Assembly (NCBI GenBank): GCA_022773305.1
Contig: JALFAW010000088.1
Coordinates: 1-55,735, forward strand
Length of the DNA stretch: 55,735 nucleotides
Source: Spirochaetia bacterium
GTDB lineage: Bacteria; Spirochaetota; Spirochaetia; Treponematales; Treponemataceae
Direction: 5' to 3'
Shown: piece after piece, positions 6,670 through 55,735 of the stretch
How positions within the stretch are numbered: the stretch's first letter is position 1
How the letters are laid out: every line of letters starts with the position of its first letter
Notes under the pieces: generated by a model
What the model saw: the letters and a program-made list of their open reading frames with translations, nothing else
Database searches by the model: none
What the model was told of the DNA's origin: nothing
Made by a program: the position numbers and the translations under genes

Positions 6670-6722
6670 TTAAAAAGTGGCTACTTTAAAAATAATAATG
6701 AGACAAAAAAAATTATTAATCA

Positions 6723-6862
6723 GGTTCAATTTCGAGTATTTGATTTACAAACCGTGGCAAGGATTGTAAGGGCTGGCGAAGCCAGTTCCGAAGCGGAGCG
6801 AAGGAATGAAGCGATAGCGGAACCCTGAAAAGCCTGTTTTTTGCGAAGCAAAAAGCCACCCT
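6723..6862 (+). repeat. Mosaic hairpin repeat, copy R1
   Basis: Complete copy of a dispersed element. The head begins GGTTCAATTTCGAGTATTTG and runs to ACCGTGGCAAGG; a GC-rich middle contains the mini-hairpin CTGGC-GAA-GCCAG (6773-6785); the tail contains TTTTTGC-GAA-GCAAAAA and ends GCCACCCT. The first 89 bp are identical to copy R6. It lies between fliE and fliF, in antisense orientation to the operon. The 6566-6949 gap holds nothing else recognisable apart from the fliF promoter. Confidence 0.85.
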
Positions 6863-6949
6863 AAAAAATAAAAATTCAAAATTCGACATTTGTCCAATCA
6901 AATTGATGATCTTTAATTTTTTCTTAAGCTTAAAGTGATTTTGATTATT

Positions 6950-12240: not shown

Positions 12241-12380
12241 TATTTACGGACATAGCCAAAAAAATTACAGAAAAGTTAGTTTCAGGGAGTGAGGCACAAG
12301 GAAAAAAGACTTTTTTTTGGGGGCATAAAAACTATTATAATGCCGCTATGCTTTTTGGCATAAACGGCAGTTATAAAAGC
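12241..12380. repeat. Hairpin-bearing repeat shared with the 52-kb region
   Basis: Contains GGGAGTGAGGCACAAGG, then a run AAAAAAGACTTTTTTTTGGGG, then ACTATTATAATGCCGCT, all with close counterparts at 52.14-52.24 kb. The 3' part forms a broken inverted repeat: TTATAA-TGCCG-ATGC facing GCAT-CGGCA-TTATAA (12335-12376). No gene is visible in 12155-12410. Confidence 0.55.
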
Positions 12381-23828: not shown

Positions 23829-23938
23829 AATTTCCTCCCATAGAATTACCATATTAGTAAAACTTAAACAGATTTTGAACCTGCTAAGCAAACCTTATAA
23901 AAGATTAAATAAATTTCGAATTCTGATTCATTAAATTC

Positions 23939-24085
23939 AGGGTGGCTTTTTGCTTCGCAAAAAACAGGCTATCCGGGGTTTCGCTATCGCTCCAGCCGCT
24001 TCCCTCGCTCCGCTCAGTCCAGTGGCCGCCTTCGGCGCCCCTACTATCCTTGCCACGGTTTAAAACCAAAAACTCGAAATAAATC
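23939..24085 (-). repeat. Mosaic hairpin repeat, copy R2
   Basis: Reverse-oriented copy between ftsA and ftsZ. Minus strand reads a diverged head (TCGAGTTTTTGGTTTTAAAC), then ACCGTGGCAAGG, a middle with CGCC-GAA-GGCG (24037-24027), a GCGATAGC stem, and the tail TTTTTGC-GAA-GCAAAAA ending GCCACCCT. The first stem differs from R1 on both arms while staying paired. It lies in the sense direction of the division operon and would be transcribed with it. Confidence 0.85.
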
Positions 24086-24100
24086 TAAATATCTTAATTT

Positions 24101-25375
24101 CTAAAATAATTTTTTTATCATTGATTTAAAAAATCCATCCCCACCTTTTTTTGTTACTTTCTTTCCAGTTGACCTTTTTTTTATTCTTTTAGAATCACTT
24201 TTTTGAAGCACTGACTGATAAGAAACAACAAGTCCAATCGCAGTTGCAAAATCAGGTTTTCTATAATCTTCTTCAATGCCCCCAAGACTATCAGGATAAC
24301 CTATTCTGACAGATGAAGTTTTAAAAACATACTGTGCAAGATCTACAACACCATCCATATTTGCACCACCACCAGTCAAAATAATATTCCCAGAAAGTTG
24401 CTTAATCGAATCTTTTGTATTTTTAACTACAACATTTTTTACCATAACAAAAATCTGTTCCATTCTAGCCTGTATTATCTGACAAATCTGAGATTGTTTT
24501 GTAATATCAGGTGATTTTCCACCAACCCCTGGTAAAATAACCTCTAGATCATTTTCTGGATTTATGTTAGGAAGCCAACAACAACCTGATTCAATTTTGA
24601 TTTTTTCCGCAGCTTGAGTTGTAATACCAGTAACAATTGCTATATCGTTTGTAACAAGATTGCCACCAACTGGAATTGACGCTGTACTAATTGGTGCTCC
24701 CTTAAAAAGAACAAGAACATCTGTTGTTCCAGCCCCCAAATCAATAAGGATTGATCCTAATTCCATTTCATCTTGATGACAAACAGAATGTGTCTGAGCC
24801 AAAGTCTTGAGCATCACTCCTTCAAGAAAATAATCTGCACGAGAAATACAGGAACGTAAATTCTGAATAATAGATTTTGATACAGTTACTATATGCACTT
24901 CAGCTTCAAGTCTAGTTCCCATTCTGTGAATTGGATCTGTAATACCACTCACACCATCTACAATAAAATTCTGTGGAATAACGTGAAGTTTTTCTTTATC
25001 ATCTGAAACTTTAATTGCAGTTGCACTATCAATAACTCGCTGAATATCAGCTGGTCCAATTTCCTTTGTAGATTTATTTGTGCTAGAAACAGGAACAACA
25101 CCTTTTGAATTCTGGCTTTCAATCAACTCGCCACCTACAGCCGTCACCACAGATTCAACTGTAGTTCCAGCATTTTGTTCCACAGCATCTATTGCTTCTT
25201 TGATTGCATTTTTTGCATCTTCTATGTTTACGATTACACCGTTTCTTAAACCTGCTGATTTTTTTTGAGCTGTTCCAGTGATTACCATTTTATTAGTTTC
25301 AGGATCAATTTCTCCAATGGCAACACGAATTACGCTTGTTCCAATATCAAGACCAACAATTTTATTCTCTGTCAT
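24101..25375 (-). CDS. ftsA: Cell division protein FtsA
   Basis: 424-residue actin-like ATPase that anchors FtsZ to the membrane. Phosphate-1 motif VGLDIGTSVIRVAIGE, phosphate-2 LGSILIDLGAGTTDVLVL, adenosine motif NIILTGGGANMDG. The C-terminus ends in a basic amphipathic segment (GGDGFFKSMIKKLF), the membrane-targeting helix. GAGGAAG precedes the ATG. It is about 100 bp downstream of ftsQ. Confidence 0.97.
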   Translation of the reverse strand: MTENKIVGLDIGTSVIRVAIGEIDPETNKMVITGTAQKKSAGLRNGVIVNIEDAKNAIKEAIDAVEQNAGTTVESVVTAVGGELIESQNSKGVVPVSSTNKSTKEIGPADIQRVIDSATAIKVSDDKEKLHVIPQNFIVDGVSGITDPIHRMGTRLEAEVHIVTVSKSIIQNLRSCISRADYFLEGVMLKTLAQTHSVCHQDEMELGSILIDLGAGTTDVLVLFKGAPISTASIPVGGNLVTNDIAIVTGITTQAAEKIKIESGCCWLPNINPENDLEVILPGVGGKSPDITKQSQICQIIQARMEQIFVMVKNVVVKNTKDSIKQLSGNIILTGGGANMDGVVDLAQYVFKTSSVRIGYPDSLGGIEEDYRKPDFATAIGLVVSYQSVLQKSDSKRIKKRSTGKKVTKKGGDGFFKSMIKKLF

Positions 25376-30387: not shown

Positions 30388-30457
30388 TTTAACCTACCAA
30401 TATTTAAAATCAGTAAAATTTCAAGTTATTTAATCAAAATACAAATTTTTATATTTT

Positions 30458-30602
30458 GAGTGGCTTTTTGCTTCACAAAAATCAGGCTTTGCGCCCTTCG
30501 CTAACGCTCATCCGCTTCCCTCGCTACGCTCAGTCCAGTGGACTGCTTCGCAGGGGCTACAATCCTTGCCACGGTTTAAAATTAAAAAACTTGAAATAAA
30601 CC
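30458..30602 (-). repeat. Mosaic hairpin repeat, copy R3
   Basis: Reverse-oriented copy between mraZ and rsmH. Minus strand: diverged head, ACCGTGGCAAGG, CTGC-GAA-GCAG (30553-30543), a GAGCGTTAGCG stem, and the tail TTTTTGTGAAGCAAAAA in which one pair is G-T. It would be part of the mraZ transcript leading into rsmH. Confidence 0.85.
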
Positions 30603-31915: not shown

Positions 31916-31923
31916 TTTTAAAA

Positions 31924-31963
31924 CCCTTGCCACGGTTTGTAAATCAAATACTCGAAATTGAAC
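31924..31963 (-). repeat. Mosaic repeat, truncated copy R5 (head only)
   Basis: 40 bp just after the nuclease-like gene. Minus strand is GTTCAATTTCGAGTATTTGA continuing to ACCGTGGCAAGGG, identical to the R1/R6 head, but the middle and tail are missing. The head alone can therefore exist as a separate unit. Confidence 0.75.
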
Positions 31964-31992
31964 AAAATAATTATTTTAATCAAAAAAGAAAA

Positions 31993-47642: not shown

Positions 47643-47765
47643 TTTAAACCGTGGCAAGGATAGTAGCCCCTGCGAAGCAGTCCACTGGACTGAGCGAAGC
47701 GAGGGAAGCGGATGAGCGTTAGCGAAGGGCGAATAGCCTGTTTTTTGCGGAGCAAAAAGCCACCC
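47643..47765 (+). repeat. Mosaic hairpin repeat, copy R4
   Basis: Between cheA and the carboxylesterase gene. TTTAAACCGTGGCAAGG, then CTGC-GAA-GCAG (47670-47680), a GAGCGTTAGCG stem, and a tail TTTTTTGCGGAGCAAAAA ending GCCACCC. The distal head seen in R1 is missing or diverged. Apart from this and the cheA promoter, nothing is seen in 47522-47834. Confidence 0.85.
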
Positions 47766-47834
47766 AAAATAAAAAATAAATAATGTATATTTTACTTTAT
47801 CAAAAAAATAAAATTTTTCACAACTTGAGATAAA

Positions 47835-51852: not shown

Positions 51853-52041
51853 AATTAACAACTCCATATTTATGACAACACAAGGCTTACGAAAATTCCA
51901 CTTTATATAAAAACAAGAAGTGGTAATCCATGAGAAATTGTAAGAATATTTATAGAAGAAAACAATAAGTGAAAACCACCAATTTTGCATGAATCATGCA
52001 CGAGGGAGTGAAATTTTTAATGATTTTAAAAGTTAGGTCTG

Positions 52042-52264
52042 TCCCTAGGGCAAACGCATTATAAAATGATTAGTTGTAATATCTGGCTCCCGGTCGTAAT
52101 TCACAGGTCAAAAACGCGCAATAATGCGCTAGACGTTTTTTGGGGTATAGAAACTATTATAATGCCGCTCTCGCGGCAGCCCCAAAAAAAGTCTTTTTGC
52201 CCTGTGTCTCACTCCCTCGTGCCAACTTTTATGAAAATATTTTTTATAATGCGTTTGCCCTGGG
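52042..52264. mobile_element. MITE-like element with 19-bp terminal inverted repeats
   Basis: Ends are GGGCAAACGCATTATAAAA (52048-52066) and its exact reverse complement (52242-52260), extended by TCCC/GGGA with one extra base on the left. About 220 bp, no ORF. Internal hairpins: GCGCA-ATAA-TGCGC (52116-52129), TGCCGC-TCTC-GCGGCA (52163-52178) inside TTTTTTGGGG/CCCCAAAAAA. It marks the border between core genes and the plasmid-type replicon. No target-site duplication is obvious. Confidence 0.6.
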
Positions 52265-52333: not shown

Positions 52334-52438
52334 ATTTCAAAACTGTAACCTTTTTTACTCACTTTTATATTTTTTTATTTCAAAAGTGTAACTATTTTTT
52401 ATTTCTTTAAAAAAAGATTTATTTCAAAACTGTAACTA
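52334..52438 (+). repeat. Upstream iteron triplet
   Basis: Three direct repeats of ATTTCAAAACTGTAACTA or its AAGTG variant start at 52334, 52377 and 52421, spaced 43 and 44 bp, close to four helical turns. The rest of 52265-52782 is very AT-rich, holds the GTTTAA cluster and the parA promoter, and has no gene. Confidence 0.9.
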
Positions 52439-52588
52439 TATTAAACAAAAATCAACATCACTGAAACGGCTCTTCTTTTCATTTTCCAGCGTTTATTATG
52501 TAAATCAATAAATTACTCAAAAAAGTAAAAAAATCCTCTCAAAACAAAGATTTGAACGTTTTTTTTAAATATTAATTTTGATTAAATC

Positions 52589-52681
52589 GTTTAATCTCTG
52601 TTTATCTGACATTTATTGGTTTAACTATTATATTATTTAATAGTTTAACTTATTATTACTTTTTGTTTAACATCTGTTTAA
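52589..52681 (+). repeat. GTTTAA repeat cluster upstream of parA
   Basis: GTTTAA occurs at 52589, 52619, 52643, 52665 and 52676. Two of them are arms of an imperfect inverted repeat GTTTAACTATTA (52619-52630) and TAATAGTTTAAC (52638-52649). Position just upstream of the par promoter suits an operator or centromere (parS) bound by the small partner protein; this role is inferred. Confidence 0.5.
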
Positions 52682-52719
52682 TAACTAATAAATAATTAAA
52701 GTATTTACTAGCCATTAAC

Positions 52720-52747
52720 TTGACATTTTATGATTAAATGGTTAAAT
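52720..52747 (+). promoter_or_regulatory. parA promoter
   Basis: TTGACA (52720-52725), 16 bp, TTAAAT (52742-52747). The -35 is a perfect consensus. It gives a leader of about 30 nt containing GGAGG before the GTG start of parA. Confidence 0.6.
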
Positions 52748-52782
52748 ATGTATTAAACCTAAAAACAATCAAGGAGGCAAAC

Positions 52783-53526
52783 GTGAAATCTTATGCATTT
52801 GCTTTGCAAAAAGGCGGAACTGGAAAAACAAGCATCAGTGTATCACTTGCTGTTGAACTTGCTTCAAAAGGAAAAAAAGTTGTATACATCGACTGCGATC
52901 CTCAGGGAAATTCCAGTTCATGGCTTTTAAACAGTTTTGAACATGAATTGGCTGATATACTTTATGAAAAAGCGCAGGTTTTAGAATGTGTTTATAAATC
53001 AGATGTTGAAAATCTTTATGTAATTCCAACTTTTGGTGTCGGAGGTGAACTAAAAGTCTGGGCAAAAAAAGAAACATATCCTTTTATTTTCCAAAAAAAC
53101 ATTCTCCCTCAGCTTCAAGAACATTTTGACTATTGTATTTTTGATACATCACCTGCTTTTGATGAATTTGAAAAATCAGTTTTTATTGGTTGTGATGAAG
53201 TAGTTCCAGTTTTGAAATTGGATGAATTTTCAAAAGACGGATGGGAAATTTTTACAAAAAATCTTTCTCAAATTGACAAACAATATGGTGTACGTCCTAA
53301 ATATAAAAAAATCATTTTAAATCAGCAGGATAAACGTCTTTCAAATCAAGCTGCATATCTTGAAGCATATAATTCATCTGAAACTTCATTTGAATTTATT
53401 GTAATTCCAAAAGACCCTGCATTTGAAAAAAGTCAAAGTGCGCACACAACTATTCAGGATAAAAGAGTTCGTGCAAAAAAAGAAACTCTAGAATCTATAT
53501 CAAATTTAGCACAGAGGTTAATGTAA
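52783..53526 (+). CDS. parA: ParA-type partition ATPase
   Basis: 247 residues from GTG 52783, five bases after GGAGG; the track ATG at 52738 lies in the promoter. Deviant Walker A KGGTGKTS at 10-17, the second loop VYIDCDPQGNSSS and Walker B YCIFDTSPAFDE. It lacks an N-terminal DNA-binding extension, so it is the short ParA/Soj (type Ib) class. These ATPases move plasmid copies using a small DNA-binding partner; the next gene, overlapping by one base, fits that role. Confidence 0.92.
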   Translation: MKSYAFALQKGGTGKTSISVSLAVELASKGKKVVYIDCDPQGNSSSWLLNSFEHELADILYEKAQVLECVYKSDVENLYVIPTFGVGGELKVWAKKETYPFIFQKNILPQLQEHFDYCIFDTSPAFDEFEKSVFIGCDEVVPVLKLDEFSKDGWEIFTKNLSQIDKQYGVRPKYKKIILNQQDKRLSNQAAYLEAYNSSETSFEFIVIPKDPAFEKSQSAHTTIQDKRVRAKKETLESISNLAQRLM

Positions 53527-53882
53527 TGGCAGTACACGAAAAAAACTTATCATTTGCTGAAGAACAAAAGTTGAAAATTGCGGAAAGCGTAAAAAATACT
53601 ACAAGTCTATCTGAAAGTGTAATTCCGGAAAAGAAAGTTGAAGATAACTTGTCTTTCAAAACTGTAACTATTCAATCTTCTGTATCACAGAATTCCAGAA
53701 AAAAAGATGTATTGATTGGAATTCATGTTACAAAAGAAGAACAAACAGAGCTTCGTCAAATGTTTTGCTCAAATGGTTTTTCTCTTGCTACTGCATATAG
53801 AGCAGCAATGACTTATTTGAGACAAGATATTAGTGATGGAAAAGCAATAATTACAAACAATGGTGAAATCTTAAGAAAATAA
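53526..53882 (+). CDS. ParA partner, ribbon-helix-helix-like DNA-binding protein
   Basis: 118 residues, starting at TAATG overlapping the parA stop. The N-terminal 65 residues are polar and probably flexible. The C-terminal part fits a ribbon-helix-helix: a strand (DVLIGIHVT), a helix (KEEQTELRQMF), a turn (CSNGF) and a second helix (LATAYRAAMTYLRQDI). Small RHH proteins after a short ParA bind centromeres and repress the par promoter (ParG/Omega-like; inference). Codons 43-48 contain a complete iteron, TTTCAAAACTGTAACTA, translated as FKTVT. Confidence 0.7.
   Translation: MAVHEKNLSFAEEQKLKIAESVKNTTSLSESVIPEKKVEDNLSFKTVTIQSSVSQNSRKKDVLIGIHVTKEEQTELRQMFCSNGFSLATAYRAAMTYLRQDISDGKAIITNNGEILRK
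53653..53670 (+). repeat. Iteron inside the par partner gene
   Basis: CTTTCAAAACTGTAACTA matches the replicon iteron in 17 of 18 positions and lies within coding sequence, same orientation as the triplets. Confidence 0.85.
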
Positions 53883-53979
53883 AAAAATCCTTACAAACTT
53901 AAAAATAATGGATATTTTGAAGAAGACGACATATTTCTCGATGGATATCGTTTCAAGCCCGTAGAACCCCTTTTTTGAG
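53883..53979 (+). pseudogene. In-frame open stretch after the partner stop codon
   Basis: After the TAA of the partner gene the same frame stays open for about 32 codons, reading protein-like sequence (NNGYFEEDDIFLDGYRFKPV) to a TGA. No start codon with a ribosome-binding site fits. It may be a decayed C-terminal extension, a gene remnant, or chance. Confidence 0.3.
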
Positions 53980-54044
53980 CATTTGAGAGGACTTTTTCTT
54001 ATTACCAGAATTTTCAAAAGTTTTTCCTCATAAAGGAGGGTATA

Positions 54045-55034
54045 GTGAAAAAAAACAAAAAAGACCAGAAAAATGAAATAATCTCAGCAGATAATTCTGA
54101 TGCAGAATTATTCAATTTTGATTATAAGCCTGATATAAAACAGTCATTAGCTTATTTGCCAGCTCTTTTTACAACAGCTTCTTTACCTTTCAGAAATGTA
54201 AATAAAACTGTATTTGTACGAAAAGGCACAAAAGGAATTACATTAAAACTTACATCGCCTTTTAATGTACCTTATGGACGTTATGGAAGATTACTTTTAA
54301 GTGTTTTAACTACACATGCAGTAATTAATAAAGGAAAAGGTTCTGGACCTGTGTATATGGAATATGCAAAACTTAGCGATTTATTAAAAGAATTACAATT
54401 ACCAAAAAGTAGAGGACCTGAAATCAAAGAACAACTTGAATGCTTTTCAAACGCAGCATTTTCTTTTACACAAAAGGTTACAGAATTGAAAGCGGGATAT
54501 CTTTTTGAAGATTTATATGATGGAAATTATCCAAAACAAGATATACAAGTAACAACACATACTACCGGAAATATTCGTTTCACAGAAGGAGTTCAATATA
54601 AAGAAGCTGATGATGGAAGTGGTGATAAAAAAAGTTTTGCTTTTAAAATAGTTTTATCACCAGAGTTTGCAGCATTTTGTCAATCTCACGCAGTTCCTAT
54701 AAATTATACAGTTTACAAAAATATATCTTCTCCAATTGCAAAAGATATTTATGCTTGGCTTGTGTACAGAAATAATTCAATAACAGAACCGTTGTTTATT
54801 CCAAGACATCATCTTGTTGAACAATTTAATCCTGTAGATGATGCAAAAAACGAAAATCAGGAGAATGTAAGTTATTTTAGAATAATCGAATATATTAAAG
54901 AAATAAAAGAAAAGCATTATCCTGAATTAAAGGTAAGTTTTGATAAAACAGGGGAGGGGATTACTCTTTATAAAAGTAAACCTCCTGTTCTAGAAAAAGA
55001 TACAAGATATGCATTAATAACAACTGATATTTAA
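54045..55034 (+). CDS. repA: Plasmid-type replication initiator RepA
   Basis: 329 residues from GTG 54045 with GGAGG five bases upstream. The core matches the plasmid RepA family: FNVPYGRYGRLLLSVLTTHA, YAKLSDLLKELQLPKSRGPE, SFAFKIVLSPEFAAFCQSHA, VPINYTVYKNISSPIAKDIY and AWLVYRNNS. Such initiators bind iterons and open the origin with DnaA. Iterons lie on both sides of the gene, with DnaA boxes after it, as expected. N-terminal 35 residues are charged and flexible. Assignment to the RepA_C-type family is from memory of motifs. Confidence 0.85.
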   Translation: MKKNKKDQKNEIISADNSDAELFNFDYKPDIKQSLAYLPALFTTASLPFRNVNKTVFVRKGTKGITLKLTSPFNVPYGRYGRLLLSVLTTHAVINKGKGSGPVYMEYAKLSDLLKELQLPKSRGPEIKEQLECFSNAAFSFTQKVTELKAGYLFEDLYDGNYPKQDIQVTTHTTGNIRFTEGVQYKEADDGSGDKKSFAFKIVLSPEFAAFCQSHAVPINYTVYKNISSPIAKDIYAWLVYRNNSITEPLFIPRHHLVEQFNPVDDAKNENQENVSYFRIIEYIKEIKEKHYPELKVSFDKTGEGITLYKSKPPVLEKDTRYALITTDI

Positions 55035-55280
55035 ATCTTAGAAAAAAAATAGTTACACTTTTGAAAGATTTTATTCAGTTATCCACATATCCACAATCTC
55101 TATTAATTGTTTAAATATATTAATTGTTAATTAATTGTTTTTATAGAAGATATTTCAAAACTGTAATTATTTATTTCAAAACTGTAACCATAGAAAAATT
55201 TATAAGGTTTCTAAATCTATAAATAACATAAAAATAGGTCCTGAAAAACAGCATTTCAAAAGTGTAACTAAAAAAGTACG

Positions 55281-55304
55281 TTATCCACAAGAAAATGTGG
55301 ATAA
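55281..55304. promoter_or_regulatory. Inverted pair of DnaA boxes
   Basis: TTATCCACA (55281-55289) and TGTGGATAA (55296-55304), both perfect matches to the DnaA box, facing each other with a 6-bp spacer between two iterons. Confidence 0.75.
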
Positions 55305-55463
55305 CTATTTCAAAAGTGTAACTATTTTAAGAATAAATTTAAGAATAAAAAACTCATAATCTGAATTTCTATAATACTTTAGTTCAGAAAAATTTGAATA
55401 TGATTTCGAATATTGGGAATCATATCAGAAAAAATATAAAAATAATAAAAAGAAGATAATGTT

Positions 55464-55568
55464 ATTTCAAAACTGTAACTAAAAAAAAGCAAACAAACAG
55501 ATTTCCATTTCAAAACTGTAACTATTTATGTTTATTAAAAAATATGTTTTATTTCAAAAGTGTAACTA
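55464..55568 (+). repeat. Downstream iteron triplet
   Basis: ATTTCAAAACTGTAACTA at 55464 and 55507, and the AAGTG variant at 55551. Spacing 43 and 44 bp, the same as the upstream triplet. The last iteron abuts mosaic repeat R6. Confidence 0.9.
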
Positions 55569-55735
55569 GGTTCAATTTCGAGTATTTGATTTACAAACCG
55601 TGGCAAGGATTGTAAGGGCTGGCGAAGCCAGTTCCGAAGCGGAGCGAAGGAATGAAGGTAGCACGAAGTGCGTACGTAACCCTGAAAAGCGCGAGTTTGC
55701 AATGCAAACTCGGGACGAGAAATGCATAGCATTTC
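55569..55735 (+). repeat. Mosaic hairpin repeat, copy R6 (runs off the window)
   Basis: First 89 bp identical to R1, including CTGGC-GAA-GCCAG. Then the module changes to GCAC-GAA-GTGC (55661-55671), the string AACCCTGAAAAGC is shared again, and the tail is replaced by CGAGTTTGC-AAT-GCAAACTCG (55692-55712) and GAAATGC-ATA-GCATTTC (55719-55735). The element continues past the window end. Confidence 0.85.

Follow-up and report, generated by a model that had tools for sequence, protein, structure and literature searches.

Two triplets of iterons, each with spacings of 43 and 44 bp, flank the par-rep cassette at the end of the DNA analyzed here (55,735 nucleotides in full, hereafter the window), raising the question of what these arrays do for the replicon and why their spacing is so regular. 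The end of the window is the replicon of a Treponema plasmid, with parA, a parB-like gene, and repA arranged in line (Table 1). The iteron motif is ATTTCAAAASTGTAAC, after which most copies carry TA, and a recount on this motif returned exactly the six triplet starts and both 43/44 spacings given in the original prediction. Only the two triplets had been listed there; they do not form a closed pair but make up 6 sites of a 13-site system in the parA-parB-repA cassette, and a distinct core origin lies between the two. The additional sites lie at 53654 (+) in parB, 55052 (-), 55153, 55174, 55254, and 55308. Exact TTTCAAAASTGTAAC sites number 12 in the window, with one further site at 55153 carrying a single mismatch, and allowing up to two mismatches gave 14 matches compared to 1.2 expected from shuffles (0 of 100 shuffles attained 14). 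Across the 3.1 Mb assembly, the exact motif is confined to this replicon and contig C54, and is absent in the reversed control.

Contig C54 (locus L017, 6348-6809) repeats the sequence upstream of parA at 90% identity, next to other flanking genes. This copy stops at the parA promoter and reflects either two copies of the plasmid or strain variation within the assembly. Other repeats were also seen in the window. A one-mismatch iteron lies inside parA (53203-53217, -) and is retained only in the related loci L068, L069, and L070. A dispersed repeat family of ~70-190 bp occurs at 6709-6898, 23936-24109, 30446-30597, 31918-31988, 47646-47781, and 55548-55708, where one copy follows immediately on the last iteron and the contig stops shortly past this copy. 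Immediately upstream of the upstream triplet is a MITE-like element of ~225 bp with inverted ends GGGCAAACGCATTATAAAA (52038-52264), a partial copy of which is found at 12258-12347.

Table 1. Features of the par-rep cassette and its iteron arrays (window coordinates)
Feature	Position	Strand	Basis
Upstream triplet copy 1	52334..52349	+	exact motif
Upstream triplet copy 2	52377..52392	+	exact motif; 43 bp past copy 1
Upstream triplet copy 3	52421..52436	+	exact motif; 44 bp past copy 2; pitch 42-44 in six other sequences
AT-rich region before parA, short TTTAA-type repeats	52440..52782	.	sequence, heptamer counts
parA, partition ATPase	52783..53526	+	PF13614 E 2.6e-30; GTG start, AAGGAGG upstream
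parB-like gene	53526..53882	+	AF2 model and alignment
parB-internal iteron	53653..53668	+	exact motif; codes FKTVT in disordered linker
repA, replication initiator	54045..55034	+	PF04796 E 5.8e-11; fold match
Inverted iteron just past repA stop	55052..55066	-	motif; conserved in family
DnaA box TTATCCACA	55079..55087	+	exact match
AT-rich segment	55098..55147	.	conserved AATTGTTAATTAATTG-type sequence in relatives
Core origin iteron A	55152..55167	+	one mismatch; layout conserved
Core origin iteron A'	55173..55188	+	motif; 21 bp past A
Core origin iteron B	55253..55268	+	motif; layout conserved
Inverted DnaA-box pair TTATCCACA / TGTGGATAA	55281..55304	.	between iterons B and C
Core origin iteron C	55307..55322	+	motif; 54 bp past B
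Downstream triplet copy 1	55464..55479	+	exact motif
Downstream triplet copy 2	55507..55522	+	exact motif; 43 bp past copy 1
Downstream triplet copy 3	55551..55566	+	exact motif; 44 bp past copy 2; relatives' pitch 44-45, one interval 54

The protein expected to bind these sites is, from its predicted structure, a two-winged-helix iteron initiator. RepA scored 43.4 bits against RepA_C (PF04796; curated cut-off 26), and its AF2 model (pLDDT 76), searched against the PDB, placed the two-winged-helix initiators RctB, RepE, pi, and pPS10 RepA at the top of the list. The closest match was to domains 2-3 of RctB (Foldseek E 6.9e-8, VIA Z 14.4), with RepE at Z ~11 and pi at Z 10.7. A profile sequence search of the PDB with RepA returned no match, so the fold assignment rests on the predicted structure, and no NCBIfam family matched ParB or RepA. 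In the AF2 model of the parB product, residues 24-51 form a disordered linker (pLDDT <50) and a helical C-terminal domain begins at residue 70 (pLDDT ~90), the latter appearing ribbon-helix-helix-like. The AT-rich region before parA is a candidate centromere and par promoter.

Downstream of repA, three exact DnaA boxes fall within 273 bp of the stop codon, together with a conserved AT-rich block that, judged by its sequence, is likely the DNA unwinding element. The core layout is found family-wide as an inverted site followed by steps of ~110-140, 21/22, 76-80, and 54 bp, with DnaA boxes. Direct repeats lie at an origin near rep, as four core iterons plus accessory copies, which is the arrangement of an iteron-controlled theta replicon, and both triplets are further iteron clusters outside the minimal origin that share the sequence of the origin iterons. 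In two relatives (L063 and L064), most iterons sit between parB and repA, not past repA. Matches in a promoter scan were at or below chance, giving no firm repA promoter.

In order to compare spacing in relatives, where variability had been named beforehand as evidence against the original prediction, RepA relatives were collected and found in 18 of 97 genomes, in 15 genome-contig loci, and on the complete plasmids pTRESU01 (T. succinifaciens NC_015386.1, RepA 58% identical) and pTB1 (T. bryantii NZ_AP025287.1, RepA 42% identical), the named organisms being mostly gut and rumen Treponema. Five loci, L068 through L072, make up the same-RepA clade (79-95% RepA identity), and five others were excluded from spacing statistics, four with no callable iteron family (L045, L058, L062, and L065) and one containing Ns (L066). 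Viral contigs yielded one RepA relative only and no iteron pairs.

The upstream triplet has a pitch of 43/44 in the window, 43/42 in C54, 42/44 in L068, 43/44 in L069, and 44/44 in each of L070, L071, and L072. For the downstream triplet, the values are 43/44 in the window, 44/44 in L069, 54/44 in L070, 45/44 in L071, and 44/44 in L072, the L068 sequence stopping short of this array. Spacing is therefore held at 42-45 bp, with one interval of 54, in the RepA clade of at least 79% identity, whereas other layouts occur in more distant relatives, and exactly 43/44 is not universal even within the clade. When gaps of 30-60 bp were allowed in a pattern search of 200 genus genomes, 24 pairs were recovered, all at 42, 43, 44, or 54 bp; as these pairs belong to the assembly that contains the window and to the five clade loci, they are not a new sample, but they show that no other spacing within the 30-60 bp range occurs.

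More distant relatives lose the triplet. L048, the closest by ParA (75%), has a RepA diverged at 62% and carries inverted pairs 33-40 bp apart, with sites matching its own origin iteron TATCAAAACTGTTAC. In L071 and L072, RepA is 79% identical, ParA is 44% identical, and ParB has an unrelated C-terminal domain, and triplets of the same iteron are still present. As L071 and L072 keep the triplets and the L048 sites follow their own origin iteron, the arrays track RepA and not Par type. The assignment of the triplet sites as iterons of a two-winged-helix initiator is supported. A rival idea is that the upstream triplet belongs to the centromere or acts as operator of parA or of the neighboring gene: the triplet does lie upstream of parA, where bound RepA could affect the par promoter, but it has the sequence of the RepA origin iterons, which is unchanged when parA and parB are replaced, its distance to parA ranges over 363-681 bp, and the gene flanking it upstream differs among members, leaving such a role very improbable. 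Two other candidates were rejected, namely a second origin at the upstream triplet, where no DnaA box is present in the window or L069-L072, and a conserved neighbor-gene promoter, as flanking genes differ among members.

The regular pitch is not accompanied by conserved sequence. Between divergent members, the triplet spacers mostly resemble one another no more than shuffled sequences do, in agreement with the original prediction that the intervening sequence is not conserved; the spacer between core iterons B and C, unlike these, is conserved. The homology block shared with L069 and L070 corresponds to 52503-55324 in the window, and in the triplets, which lie outside it, only the iterons and the pitch are clearly kept. 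In a jitter test, 18 of 25 clade intervals fell at 43-44 bp compared to 2.4 expected (p=5e-5), as did 8 of 17 in pTB1 compared to 1.2 expected, and outside the clade and pTB1 the excess was weak (8 of 106 compared to 3.3 expected, p=0.014), these spacing p-values being indicative only, because the loci are not independent. The pTB1 array consists of 11 iterons (L085 9152-9603; NZ_AP025287.1 ~57675-58126) with differing spacers and successive intervals of 43, 43, 43, 44, 42, 43, 43, 43, 42, and 43 bp, and is an independent instance of the pitch. A second repA lies near this array.

Some of the constancy in pitch may be passive inheritance. A history in which a ~44 bp unit was tandemly duplicated, with the pitch surviving solely through the rarity of indels, would account for the weak spacer similarity seen in a few pairs (L069-L070, z 3.5; L070-L072, z 2.8). 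Such a history is nonetheless an improbable full account, as the distance from the third upstream site to parA has drifted across the range given above while the pitch stayed at 42-45 bp, upstream and downstream spacers within one plasmid show no similarity, and the sole outlier differs by approximately one turn, 54 bp being that much longer than 44.

This last observation leads to helical phasing. The clade spacings are multiples of one period, with a best fit at ~10.8 bp (mean cosine 0.81, p=2e-4), compared to a mean cosine of only 0.39 at 10.5 bp. The original claim that all repeats share one DNA face therefore stands in part: phasing is significant and fits at ~10.8-11 bp per turn, but at 10.5 bp per turn 44 bp is a non-integral number of turns, the third site is turned ~100 degrees from the first, and the sites deviate from a strict single-face arrangement. 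Such an arrangement would require a local helical repeat greater than that of textbook B-DNA, or RepA that bends or untwists the DNA. Separating iterons by half a turn abolishes cooperative binding (PMC4980987).

Any additional copy of this iteron will necessarily take up some RepA, and in RA3 repeat blocks flank the rep genes, with DR1 titrating the initiator (PMC9455977). The triplets could accordingly act as further sinks for RepA, reducing the free initiator with neither looping nor phasing. Titration of this kind requires no fixed pitch, yet the pitch is retained with saturated spacers; titration alone accounts for the copies, not the pitch, and we regard it as unlikely to be the whole explanation. 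The triplets are most likely RepA-binding inc-type control arrays, by analogy to F incC or P1 incA, that work through phased RepA, and as an explanation of the data as a whole we favor, with reasonable though not high confidence, inc-type accessory arrays at which phased RepA pairing limits initiation. RepA would initiate at the core origin directly downstream of repA (55052-55322), with the triplets serving as accessory binding arrays at both ends of the par-rep cassette. RepA molecules approximately four helical turns apart would cooperate in binding and expose a shared surface, which could pair with RepA bound at the origin iterons or at the other triplet, in cis and in trans, and would shut off initiation as RepA and iteron dose increase. 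In F, the oriS and incC arrays are paired by RepE and initiation is blocked (PMC13028717), and handcuffing is established for pPS10 and P1 (PMC4857107). The conserved pitch thus probably contributes to self-limitation of plasmid replication, by a mechanism familiar from plasmids such as F. Pairing in cis would loop out parA-parB-repA; this looping of the cassette, part of the original prediction, is plausible, with precedents in other plasmids. For P1, in vivo measurement of looping by RepA was attempted with an inconclusive result (PMC8053113).

The iteron inside parB is the more surprising element of the replicon. When parA, parB, and repA were scanned with a motif model trained solely on sites past the repA stop, an internal iteron was found at p<0.01 by codon shuffles in parB at 23 of 29 loci, in parA at 8, and in repA at 5, with the independent lineages numbering approximately nine by eye, fewer than the loci because several are close relatives. 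The peptide encoded at the parB site contains KTVT in some lineages and SQIxN or NSSVI in others, the site is reversed in several loci, including pTRESU01 (L084 7714; NC_015386.1 ~151203), and it persists where parA and parB have been replaced. As the site is found in either orientation, specifies differing peptides, and accompanies unrelated ParB C-terminal domains, sequence comparison indicates selection on it as DNA. A literature search of partial coverage found nothing on iterons within parB-type genes, which is weak evidence of novelty.

Located ~390 bp before the repA start, the parB iteron could join the RepA complex, and in the most speculative step of the model the complex at this site may hinder transcription into repA, by repression or as a roadblock. 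Rather tentatively, the end triplets and the parB-linker iteron might form one RepA-bridged unit that folds the cassette and couples replication control to partition-gene expression. This family offers a natural test, repeated across its phylogeny, of whether iteron-array geometry, and not just iteron number, controls plasmid copy number; with a conserved pitch and freely varying spacers, insertions of half a turn would address geometry cleanly. A direct physical connection of the initiator to the partition operon is also suggested, in Treponema plasmids of gut and rumen that have received little study.

Among known systems, the F oriS-repE-incC region resembles this replicon in its initiator fold, in having iteron arrays to either side of rep, and in its DnaA boxes and AT-rich region. 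Here, unlike in F, the core origin is downstream of rep, the accessory triplets flank par plus rep, an iteron lies inside parB, and the pitch is ~44 bp, the usual iteron pitch being ~22 bp. Within the same family, pTB1 shares the 42-44 bp pitch but has a single long array without adjacent parA and parB, and pTRESU01 shares the parB-internal iteron but is without triplets at 44 bp. SGI1, as far as the available part of its description extends, also has a RepA_C (PF04796) initiator and an oriV that directly follows rep and contains four iterons along with AT-rich DNA and a DnaA box, but its iterons are GC-rich 17-mers, and flanking triplets or an intragenic site go unmentioned in that part (PMC7433901). 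RA3 (IncU; DR1-repA-repB-DR2) is likewise organized with long repeat blocks flanking its replication genes, one of which titrates the initiator (PMC9455977), but differs in initiator and repeat types, in an origin within the 3' end of repB, and in antisense control. The best fold match, RctB, acts at ori2 of Vibrio cholerae chromosome 2; in the available portion of the source, distant sites control this origin through initiator-mediated handcuffing with partition crosstalk, the sites being 39-mers and 29-mers, with 44-bp triplets undescribed there (PMC6090056).
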